From Halogeometricum sp. S1BR25-6 (GTDB lineage: Archaea; Halobacteriota; Halobacteria; Halobacteriales; Haloferacaceae), in NCBI RefSeq assembly GCF_031624495.1, contig NZ_JAMQOP010000002.1:868001-932000 (forward strand): DNA of 64,000 bases. The letters run 5' to 3'. Below the pieces are notes generated by a model. It did no database searches and was not told where the DNA came from. It saw only the letters and a program-made list of their open reading frames with translations. Of the stretch, positions 21,295-24,337 are shown piece by piece. The position numbers were made by a program, and so were the translations under genes. Every line of letters begins with the position of its first letter. Position 1 is the stretch's first letter.

Positions 21295-22392
21295 TCACCG
21301 CTTGCCGCGCGCCGTGGAGAACCGCCCCGACTTCCCCATGTCCGACCGCGAGGAGGGAACCGTCGAGAGGCGGCCGCGGGACCCGGACGTCGACCGCGTC
21401 CGGTCGTCGTCCGCGCGTTCTTTTTCCGCGTCGTCTTCGGCTTCTTCGACCGCGTCCGCCTCGGCGGCCTCCTCGTCGACGTCGGCCGCCTCCGCATCGG
21501 CGTCCGCGTCCGCTTCGGCCGCCGCCTCGTCGTCGCCGACGAGTTGCCGCAGGCGGTCGACGTGGTCCTCCAGTTCGAAGAGTTCGTCGTCTCCGTCGGC
21601 GTCGGGTTCGCCGTCGGTATCGGAGTCAGAGTCGGGGTCGGGGTCGGAATCGGCATCCGAATCATCGCCGTCGTCGTTCACCGCCTCCGCGGCGGCGTCG
21701 ACGACGGTTTCGGCGGCACCCTTCTCCGCGTCCTCGCTCTCGCCGCCGTCGTCGGCTGACTCCTCGTCCTCGTCGCCGGCCATCGCGTCCGCGGCCGCGC
21801 CGACGACGGCTTCGACGGCGTCCTCCGCCGCGCTGTCGTCTTCGGCGTTCGGGTCTTCGTCTTCGGCATCCGTCGCGTCGGCGGCCTCGGAGTCGGGCGT
21901 CTGGCCGTCCGCGTCCGATTCCGTCGATTCGTCGCCGCCGCTCGCCTCGTCGCCGCCGAGGATGTGCCCGAGTCGGTCGATGTACTCTTCGAGGGCGACG
22001 CCGCCGTCGTCGGCCGTCTGCGCGTCGCCGACGACGCGGTCCACGCGCACCGCTCGCTCCTCGGCAGACAAGTCGGACCACGACTCGCCGAGGTCGGCGA
22101 GTTGGAGCAGCGTCCGGAGTTCGACGATGGCGTCCGGGTCGGCGTCGCGGATGACCGCCGGGAGGTCGACCGGCGAGACGTCGTCGGGGGCGTCCTCGAA
22201 TCCGGTGACGGCCAGCAGTTCGGAGAGGGACGCTTCGGAGAGGGCGTCGGCGAGTCGCTCGGCCGGGTCGCGAAGCGTCTCCGCTCGCTCCCCGTCGAGT
22301 TCGTCGTCGCCCTCGGCGTGTACCTCCTCGGCCGTCGTCGCTGCGTCCTCGAACGCGACGGCGAGTTCGGAATCTGACTCTGAGTCGGTCAT
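21295..22392 (-). CDS. Acidic operon protein D: unknown, with basic RS-like tail
   Basis: A 365-residue protein, last gene of the four-gene acidic operon. Residues 35-145 look folded and helical (AERLADALSEASLSELLAV, DPDAIVELRTLLQLADLG, EEYIDRLGHILG). Residues about 150-285 are Asp/Glu/Ala low complexity. A second short helix (ELEDHVDRLRQLVG) follows. The last 30 residues abruptly become basic, with two related motifs, GRLSTV and GRFSTARGKR. Charge reversal at the C-terminus of so acidic a protein is unusual and could bind nucleic acid or partner proteins. It is convergent with pepF. The start is 15 bases after the upstream stop. No known family recognised. Confidence 0.8.
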   Translation of the reverse strand: MTDSESDSELAVAFEDAATTAEEVHAEGDDELDGERAETLRDPAERLADALSEASLSELLAVTGFEDAPDDVSPVDLPAVIRDADPDAIVELRTLLQLADLGESWSDLSAEERAVRVDRVVGDAQTADDGGVALEEYIDRLGHILGGDEASGGDESTESDADGQTPDSEAADATDAEDEDPNAEDDSAAEDAVEAVVGAAADAMAGDEDEESADDGGESEDAEKGAAETVVDAAAEAVNDDGDDSDADSDPDPDSDSDTDGEPDADGDDELFELEDHVDRLRQLVGDDEAAAEADADADAEAADVDEEAAEADAVEEAEDDAEKERADDDRTRSTSGSRGRLSTVPSSRSDMGKSGRFSTARGKR

Positions 22393-22407
22393 GCTCTCTC
22401 CTCGTCG

Positions 22408-23172
22408 CTACGACGATTCGTCGTCGTCGCTCTCGTCGCTTTCGGTCGACTCCTCGGTCTCCTCGCCGTCGTCAGCCTCCTCCGCGTCCGAGTCGGCGTC
22501 GCCGTCGGCCTCCCCCTCGGAGGCGTCGGCATCCTCGTCGAAGTTGTCGACGATGTCGTCGATCATCTCGTCCCGCGAGAGGTTCGCCTTCACGCCGGAT
22601 TCCTTGGCGATGGACTGTATCTTCGAGTACTCCATCATCTCCAGCAGTTCGCGGTACGTCTCCTTGCGGAGTTCGTCCATGTCGCCGGCGGCGAGTTTCT
22701 CGGCCGCGTTCTCGGCTTCCTCCGCGGCGGCGTCGGCGGCTTCTTCGGCCGTGTCCCCCGCGCTCTCGGCGGCGTCCTCGGCCTGCTCCGCCGCGTCGCC
22801 GGCGGCGTCCGCCGCCGTCTCGCCGCGCGCTTCGAGGGAATCGACGAACCCGCGGAGCGCGTCCCCGATGGGCTCTTTGAACTCGGGCTTTTTGAGCGTC
22901 CGCCCGACGGCGAGGAGGAGCGACCGGCCGAAGCGGGCCGACAACGAGGGGTCGTCGTCGCTCCAGAACGCCAGCTTCGAGAGCACCCAGTTCACGACGC
23001 CGCGACCGAGGAGGCGACCGACCGTCTCCCCGAGCGTCTCGCCGATGGACCGGCCGAGCGACTCGCCGTCCAGGTCCTCGGTCACGTCGCCGCCGGTGAG
23101 CGCCGACCCGACGTCTACCTCGTCGACCACGTCTCTTGCCACGTCGTTAGCGAGGTTGGAGGCGTCCGTCAC
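22408..23172 (-). CDS. Acidic operon protein C: glycine-zipper, Ala-rich helix and Rho_N/SAP-like module
   Basis: A 254-residue protein of unknown function. Residues 39-60 hold a glycine-zipper-like segment (LGRSIGETLGETVGRLLGRG). Residues 61-112 are helical and moderately hydrophobic. Residues 112-162 are an Ala/Glu/Asp helix likely to form a coiled coil. Residues 164-212 (DELRKETYRELLEMM, IQSIAKESGV, NLSRDEMIDDIV) resemble a Rho N-terminal or SAP/HeH-type helical module. The tail is acidic. Its start codon overlaps the stop of the upstream gene by four bases (ATGA), implying translational coupling. It shares the GETxG...GRxxG module with protein B. Confidence 0.82.
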   Translation of the reverse strand: MTDASNLANDVARDVVDEVDVGSALTGGDVTEDLDGESLGRSIGETLGETVGRLLGRGVVNWVLSKLAFWSDDDPSLSARFGRSLLLAVGRTLKKPEFKEPIGDALRGFVDSLEARGETAADAAGDAAEQAEDAAESAGDTAEEAADAAAEEAENAAEKLAAGDMDELRKETYRELLEMMEYSKIQSIAKESGVKANLSRDEMIDDIVDNFDEDADASEGEADGDADSDAEEADDGEETEESTESDESDDDESS

Positions 23173-23531
23173 GACTCTTCACTCTCCTCGTCGCTGTTAG
23201 CCCCGCTCTCGCTCTCCACTGCGTCTTCGCTCCCGTCCGACTCGTCGCCATTGGTTTCGGCTTCGGATTCGGTGTCGGCGTCCGTCTCGTCGTCCGCCGA
23301 CTCGGGGTCGGACTCGGATTCCGAGGACTCACCCGACAGCGCCGCGTCGAGTACGCTCGCGCCGACGACGCCGCCCAACCACGCGCCGAGGTGACGGCCG
23401 AGGAACGCGCCGATGGTCTCGCCGACCGGCGCGTCCTCGTCTTCGAACTCCTCGGCCAGCGGCGTGTCCGCGAACACCTCCGCGAAGTCGACGTTGTCGA
23501 AGGCGTTACGAAGGGTCGACTCCTCGCTCAT
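23169..23531 (-). CDS. Acidic operon protein B: glycine-zipper protein with acidic tail
   Basis: A 120-residue protein. Residues 1-33 form an acidic amphipathic start. Residues 36-64 hold GETIGAFLGRHLGAWLGG and VVGASVLDAAL, a glycine-zipper-like hydrophobic segment long enough to span or lie on a membrane. Residues 66-120 are almost entirely Ser, Glu and Asp. Both ends overlap neighbouring genes by four bases. No family recognised. I infer a small membrane-associated or self-assembling component. Confidence 0.8.
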   Translation of the reverse strand: MSEESTLRNAFDNVDFAEVFADTPLAEEFEDEDAPVGETIGAFLGRHLGAWLGGVVGASVLDAALSGESSESESDPESADDETDADTESEAETNGDESDGSEDAVESESGANSDEESEES

Positions 23532-24337
23532 GCTTCCGACCCGGAACCGGACTCCTCGTCGTCGTCGGAGTCCGAGAACATCTGCGTGATCAGTTCTTTC
23601 AGCACCGAGGTCAGAATCTCCTGCAGGGGGACGTCCTCGAAGGCGTCGCCCATCGACTCCTTCGCGGAGGAGAACGCCGAGGAGACTCGGCTCTCGGAGT
23701 CCTCGCCCTCCTCACCTTCTTCGCCCTCCTCGTCGCCGCCCATCAGGTCGTCCATCATGCTGTCGCCGTCCTCGTCGCCCATCAGACCCTCGAAGAGGCT
23801 CCCGCCCATGAGGTTCGACAGCAGACCGCTTCCGCCGTCGCCGAGGAGTCCCGACACGGCGTCAAGGAGGTTGCCCAGGAGGTTTCCGGGACCGCTGACC
23901 GCCGACACGTCGAGTTCGACCTCTTCGAGGTCGACTTCGAGGCCGAGGAGGTCGAGGAACAGTCCTTCGAGGTCCAGATAGAGGATGCTCGTCCCTTCGT
24001 CTTCTTCCTCTTCCTCTTCTTCCTCTTCTTCCTCCTCCGCTTCCTCTTCTTCCTCGGCTTCGTCGGCGTCCTCCTCTTCTTCGGACTCCTCGTCGCCTTC
24101 TTCGGACTCCTCCTCGTCCGAGTCGTCTTCCTCTTCCTCCGTCCCGTCCTCCGACTCCGTCTCGGCCTCGGTCTCCTCTTCGGTTTCAGCGTCGTCCTCC
24201 GAGGCTTCGTCCTCGCTCTCGTCCTCCCCGCCGTCGGTCATGAGTCGACCGTCGTTCGGGGACTGCATCGTCCGCAGGGCGTCCGGCGTCTCGTCGGATT
24301 CGACCGTCTCGTCGCGTCGGCTAGGAGCGTCTGTCAT
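23528..24337 (-). CDS. Acidic operon protein A: poly-Glu protein with GNLLGNLL domain
   Basis: A 269-residue protein, first gene of the acidic operon. Residues 38-114 are nearly pure Glu/Asp, ending in a run of more than ten Glu. Residues 117-177 form a hydrophobic domain (LYLDLEGLFLDLLGLEVDL, then SGPGNLLGNLLDAVSGLLG). It resembles a motif I recall from secreted proteins of actinobacteria and other bacteria, where it is likewise followed by Gly/Leu-rich repeats. Residues 178-212 are Gly/Asp/Met rich and residues 217-254 form an amphipathic helix. No signal peptide is visible. Function unknown; a surface or compartment scaffold is one possibility. Confidence 0.82.
   Translation of the reverse strand: MTDAPSRRDETVESDETPDALRTMQSPNDGRLMTDGGEDESEDEASEDDAETEEETEAETESEDGTEEEEDDSDEEESEEGDEESEEEEDADEAEEEEEAEEEEEEEEEEEEDEGTSILYLDLEGLFLDLLGLEVDLEEVELDVSAVSGPGNLLGNLLDAVSGLLGDGGSGLLSNLMGGSLFEGLMGDEDGDSMMDDLMGGDEEGEEGEEGEDSESRVSSAFSSAKESMGDAFEDVPLQEILTSVLKELITQMFSDSDDDEESGSGSEA
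23990..24110. repeat. Microsatellite-like CTTCCT/GAGGAA tract
   Basis: A run of TCCTCTTCTTCCTC-type repeats on the plus strand encodes the poly-Glu stretch of the minus-strand gene. Codon choice is mixed GAG/GAA, so the DNA repeat is imperfect. Confidence 0.6.

Follow-up and report, generated by a model that had tools for sequence, protein, structure and literature searches.

The DNA analysed here, referred to as the window, is a stretch of 64,000 nucleotides from the haloarchaeon Halogeometricum sp. S1BR25-6 (assembly GCF_031624495.1, contig NZ_JAMQOP010000002.1, positions 868,001-932,000 of the forward strand). It contains four consecutive genes, designated A, B, C and D, which a first-pass annotation made from the sequence alone had described as a translationally coupled operon read in one direction. 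All four open reading frames were recovered on the minus strand (Table 1). The junctions are as initially described for A and B, which overlap by the 4 bases ATGA, and for C and D, which are separated by 15 bases; the 4-base overlap of B and C was misread as ATGA and is in fact GTGA, with GTG being the start codon of C. Codon-position composition (a third-position guanine plus cytosine content of 0.80-0.91) and ratios of nonsynonymous to synonymous substitution rates of 0.23-0.40, measured against a close congener, establish A-D as real coding genes. An open reading frame of the plus strand (21302-23200) was rejected as a gene, since it mirrors the acidic codons of the opposite strand. The extreme acidity attributed to the four proteins is real: they occupy the first four ranks among the 55 called genes of the window, with an aspartate plus glutamate content of 29-41% versus a window median of 19%, and C displays a net charge of -53.

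Table 1. Location of the four genes and of their main modules in the window
Feature	Position	Strand	Description
Gene A, 269 amino acids	23528-24337	minus	N-terminal half acidic and of low complexity; conserved core of strand and helix; amphipathic helix at the C-terminus
Conserved core of A, residues ~118-168, LDLEGLFLDLLGLEVDL...GNLLGNLL	23834-23986	minus	18 invariant columns in 13 sequences
Gene B, 120 amino acids	23169-23531	minus	DVDF...T motif, glycine-zipper helix, acidic tail
Gene C, 254 amino acids	22408-23172	minus	Glycine-zipper domain resembling that of B; long helix; SAP/Rho_N-like module; acidic tail
SAP/Rho_N-like module of C, residues ~170-215	22528-22665	minus	Predicted local distance difference test score >90; PDB neighbours; weak profile matches
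Gene D, 365 amino acids	21295-22392	minus	GvpI paralogue; helical core, acidic middle, short basic tail
C-terminal tail of D, GRLSTVPSSRSDMGKSGRFSTARGKR	21298-21375	minus	Carries the motif also present in GvpI (HSTMP...HSTVP)

All modules proposed for these proteins are present: the core of A, a glycine zipper in both B and C, a coiled coil and a SAP/Rho_N-like module in C and, in D, a helical core and a basic tail. Scans of the four window proteins against Pfam and NCBIfam yielded no match above cut-off, and none of them was found to belong to an unrelated, known family. Homology searches were restricted to the non-acidic cores. The core of A was considered as a relative of the GvpA/GvpJ/GvpM family of gas vesicle shell proteins and rejected, its hhalign probability versus GvpA being 0.4%. 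The confidence of the structure predicted for A is too low for structural comparison, and searches of PDB sequences with the cores of A and C returned nothing significant. The domain found in the A core recurs in the window genome in a protein of 209 amino acids, equipped with a twin-arginine translocation type signal and ending in LDLLGL...GNLLGNLLC (L152:7043-7672, about 1891043-1891672 of contig C1), to which neither Pfam nor NCBIfam gives a name. The glycine-zipper domain is common to B and to the N-terminal part of C (probability 96.8%). The structural model of the C module folds like the SAP, Rho_N and helix-extension-helix domains: its nearest PDB structures are Rho and SAP domains (best neighbours Rho, DEK, PARP-1 and Tho1), with a root mean square deviation of about 1 Å over about 41 columns. 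The corresponding E-values exceed 2, which is expected since the module is so short. The module differs from these domains by its fusion to a glycine-zipper domain and by sequence matches that stay below the Pfam cut-offs (Rho_N is matched by 7 of 13 members with a best E of 0.0085, and the best E for SAP_new25 is 0.016). Folds of this kind usually bind nucleic acids, an activity which is only predicted for C.

The first-pass annotation had also asked whether the four genes stay together in other haloarchaea. A profile built from the SAP-like core of C alone was scanned over a named genome collection and retrieved 65 loci in Halogeometricum, Haladaptatus, Halegenticoccus, Halomarina, Natrialba, Natrinema, Natronococcus and other genera. 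The order A-B-C-D is intact on a single strand in 57 of them, and the overlap of A and B measures exactly 4 bases in 38 of these 57 ordered loci, an arrangement which on both counts goes beyond chance. The flanking genes, which we take from names read off the sequence to include peptidases, a ParB-like protein and a sulfite-reductase-like protein, are constant within a genus and different in other genera; the block stays together regardless. The four genes can be regarded as a conserved functional unit whose proteins are, as previously proposed, of unknown function. All four are labeled 'hypothetical protein' in a public plasmid entry of Haladaptatus halobius, and this organism possesses three copies of the block (L061, L062 and L063, on the chromosome and two plasmids), with D of the third copy apparently shortened. 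No confirmed occurrence of A was found in viral contigs. A tblastn search of plasmids with the A core gave no match, probably because of low-complexity masking, and is hence not evidence of absence; with a less repetitive relative of A, three haloarchaeal records were matched. No conserved promoter emerged upstream of A, where five congeners align poorly. In the window, the operon lies downstream of a transfer RNA-Lys (tRNA-Lys) gene (24552-24625). In two congeners, the sequence of the tRNA-Lys 3' end is repeated two to three times just upstream of A (L020:6465, 6580 and 6696; L022:11239 and 11354), as at an integration hot spot.

Gas vesicles are protein-walled flotation bubbles whose shell gene is gvpA and whose exterior is classically strengthened by GvpC. 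The distribution of the operon was compared with that of the gas vesicle (gvp) genes in 293 genomes representing 87 genera of one order, using profiles of the A core and of the GvpA family (PF00741) as queries. The A core was detected in 100 genomes and gvpA in 122, with both present in 98 and neither in 169. Expressed differently, gvpA accompanies A in 98 of 100 cases and is found in 24 of the 193 genomes devoid of A (odds ratio 345). The two exceptions carrying A without gvpA are 70% and 81% complete, and both are devoid of C. At the genus level, A occurs in 38 and gvpA in 48 of the 87 genera and, in genera where the presence of gvp varies, the species lacking gvp are devoid of A as well (G089 and G185 in g34, G131 in g65, G246 in g89). 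A was not found outside its order in a phylum sample of 148 genomes, many of which are themselves haloarchaea.

The association extends to gene maps. The complete block directly adjoins gvp genes in two genomes of the first sample, and A is located 1.5-12 kilobases from gvpA in 20 genomes. In several lineages, A and B are inserted between gvpH and the gene at the gvpI position, or A and C, with or without B, adjoin gvpO. On a closed plasmid of Halocatena salina, where A was located by tblastn while B and the gvpI-position gene were assigned by position, the order is gvpF, gvpG, gvpH, A, B, the gvpI-position gene, then genes annotated as encoding gas vesicle proteins, K and L among them; overlaps of 4 bases link H to A, A to B and B to I in this operon. 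In another genome (G011), an additional B-like glycine-zipper protein lies beside gvpM (L043:7239-8144) and the A-B-C block is located elsewhere.

Two types of gvp clusters can be distinguished when GvpC, called by its repeat family (PF05465), is considered. A clear GvpC is present in 8 of the 122 gvp-positive genomes, all eight without A, and in none of the 98 genomes having both A and gvpA. Single marginal matches were recorded in G102 and G087, that of G102 being on a contig other than its gvp cluster. Neither GvpC nor A was detected in 16 gvp-positive genomes, one of which (G268) retains C. This genome was the only positive when the C core was searched in 22 genomes, comprising these 16, four with GvpC and the two exceptions mentioned above; C is absent from the other 21. 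Neither GvpC repeats nor GvpN could be recognized in the window genome, whose gvp cluster is L036. GvpN, which is required in Halobacterium to enlarge vesicles, shows no exclusion pattern with A, and about half of the A-positive genomes lack it. Halobacterium pNRC100 and Haloplanus sp. GDY1 are of the GvpC/D/E type, and the stretches examined there carry no annotated A-D. A ParA-family gene follows the GvpC-type clusters of Halobacterium and Haloplanus (L121:11916-12680; L145:12917-13681). A 2015 review lists clusters devoid of gvpC and gvpDE for Halopiger, Haladaptatus, Natrinema, Natrialba and Natronobacterium, and records no vesicles for these (PMC4390858). The A-B-C-D operon therefore belongs to the larger, less studied gvp type. 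Its likeness to GvpC is limited to a possible role, that of an acidic shell accessory in one of two gvp types with complementary distributions; it consists of four proteins rather than one, and the 32-33 amino acid repeats of GvpC are absent from the window genome.

Protein D is related to a known gas vesicle protein. Profiles of its core and of its tail each match the protein encoded at the gvpI position of gvp clusters, and a profile-profile comparison of the D and GvpI families gives a probability of 99.4% (E 1.1e-21). Composition alone does not account for this match, since the D profile scored 0.1% against the C family and likewise against the A family, both just as acidic. A comparison with the single short Halobacterium GvpI gives a weak 28.5%; the HSTMP...HSTVP motif is present in the latter. 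GvpI exists in a short form in Halobacterium salinarum and in a long form in Natrialba magadii (Nmag_0338), where it has already been noted (PMC3403918). D shares the helical core of the long form and the C-terminal STxP...STxP motif. It stops after this motif, without the RIYGxR ending, lacks the strongly basic N-terminus of the short form, is very acidic overall, and is not positioned between gvpH and gvpJ. On account of the missing RIYGxR ending, and since the gvpI position of its genome is occupied by a separate GvpI protein, D is, by sequence, a paralogue of GvpI coexisting with it and not GvpI proper.

Inheritance as a unit, co-occurrence with gvpA, embedding in or adjacency to gvp clusters in several families, the GvpI-related D and the lack of overlap with GvpC all argue for a role in gas vesicles, which is held with great confidence. 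In its specific form, namely that A-B-C-D is an undescribed accessory operon of the GvpC-less haloarchaeal gvp type, the proposal is very probable. No published description of such a haloarchaeal operon was found among the open-licence papers searched, which agrees with the initial remark that no system of this organization had been described. The initial picture of a self-assembling or membrane-associated machine is retained in part: the proteins would be components of a self-assembling structure, as gas vesicle accessory genes, and are neither free-standing nor obviously membrane-bound. Given a gas vesicle function, the shaping or stabilization of the shell stands somewhat short of an even chance, the chaperoning of assembly is a tentative proposition, and clustering or positioning a doubtful one. 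The proposed mechanism can be briefly summarized as follows. The hydrophobic modules (the A core and the zippers that B and C each contain) would dock on the shell protein or on the growing vesicle, and the acidic tails would keep A, B and C soluble in molar salt. By analogy with GvpI, D may link the very acidic A-C proteins to the accessory complex through its basic STVP tail. Vesicles become very long when GvpI is lost, and a connecting role between acidic Gvp proteins has been proposed for it (PMC7688916). Jointly, A-D would in this lineage take on the tasks that fall to GvpC and GvpI in Halobacterium: determining shape and length and stabilizing the shell.

Several observations weigh against this proposal. 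The window operon and the gvp cluster of the same genome are located on different contigs, and the A core is also found in the exported 209 amino acid protein, away from gvp genes. About 15 gvp-positive genomes contain neither GvpC nor the operon, so that the latter is not indispensable for keeping gvp genes. The exclusion of GvpC may reflect the inheritance of cluster types and not replacement. The p-values of the co-occurrence analysis ignore ancestry and are only to be taken as signs of a large effect. Finally, many carriers of GvpC-less clusters have been reported as vesicle-negative in culture for an unknown reason (PMC4390858).

One rival explanation is that A-D are assembly chaperones which keep the hydrophobic shell proteins GvpA, GvpJ and GvpM soluble, deliver them and do not remain on the finished vesicle. 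Some lineages indeed have A and B in the gvpF-M accessory operon, which encodes assembly factors, and GvpH and GvpI are known to bind accessory proteins and to influence oligomer state (PMC7688916). A complete assembly set is nevertheless already available in GvpC-less clusters, which retain gvpF, G, J, K, L, M and O as well as the GvpI gene, and this explanation appears rather unlikely. Alternatively, the proteins could organize finished vesicles, with the C module holding nucleic acid while the C zipper, A and B hold vesicles, leading to clustering, tethering or sharing at division, a role comparable to the clustering by GvpU/GvpT in Bacillus. Such a role would suit the SAP/Rho_N-like fold, the long acidic low-complexity tails and the dispensability of the operon in some gvp-positive lineages, and proteins that cluster vesicles have been described elsewhere, namely GvpU and GvpT of Bacillus (PMC11445434). 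The GvpU/GvpT proteins of Bacillus megaterium pNL29 resemble A-D in being accessory and dispensable for having gvp genes, the disordered or low-complexity parts being a suggested analogy; the gene set is however different, and the window proteins have no NCBIfam match to GvpU or GvpT. Considering in addition that C is itself acidic, at the net charge given above, that its nucleic acid binding is a prediction and that D is related to GvpI, an assembly and shape protein, this organizing role is judged unlikely.

A-D might also act in a different granule or membrane process, for instance on polyhydroxyalkanoate (PHA) granules, and have only ancestry and habitat in common with the gvp genes. The copy in the window does not adjoin gvp, one C member gives a weak Phasin_2 match, and A is associated with PHA synthase (74 of 100 A-positive versus 93 of 193 A-negative genomes, odds ratio 3.1). 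PHA synthase is however equally tied to gvp itself (odds ratio 3.0), far from the value of 345 between A and gvpA, and is absent from 26 of the 100 A-positive genomes; A and B are found inside gvp operons and D is a GvpI relative. The PHA granule hypothesis was rejected on the grounds that the PHA synthase link is no stronger for A than for gvp, and any such process is regarded as highly improbable. The similarity between loci could finally be an artefact that arises because acidic proteins of halophiles are of low complexity, as was suggested by the long aspartate/glutamate tracts and by early weak matches of C, two of them in ribosomal-protein operons (L032 and L033) and two others (L034 and L035), which were discarded as acidic-tail artefacts. 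The searches were made with non-acidic cores only and the equally acidic family controls reached just 0.1%; the conserved gene order, the 4-base overlap and the core alignments already contradict this explanation, whose likelihood is negligible.

Elsewhere in the window, an archaeal ribonuclease P RNA is located at 52894-53383 on the minus strand.

A more elaborate version of the gas vesicle role, considered quite improbable, would assign to A-B-C-D a GvpC-independent outer layer combined with a tether, with A, B and D coating and shaping the shell and the SAP-like module of C anchoring the vesicles to nucleic acid. If true, it would constitute an archaeal means to position a protein organelle and share it out at division. 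As for the accessory operon of the GvpC-less type, its significance lies in the fact that the archaeal vesicle models, Halobacterium and Haloferax mediterranei, carry GvpC-containing gvp clusters. About 80% of the sampled gvp-bearing haloarchaeal genomes (98/122) have no recognizable GvpC and possess this unannotated operon instead. If the operon is a missing part of the GvpC-less system, the puzzle of the absent vesicles becomes directly testable. The operon also offers new parts for engineered vesicles, whose applications include ultrasound imaging and the display of antigens.

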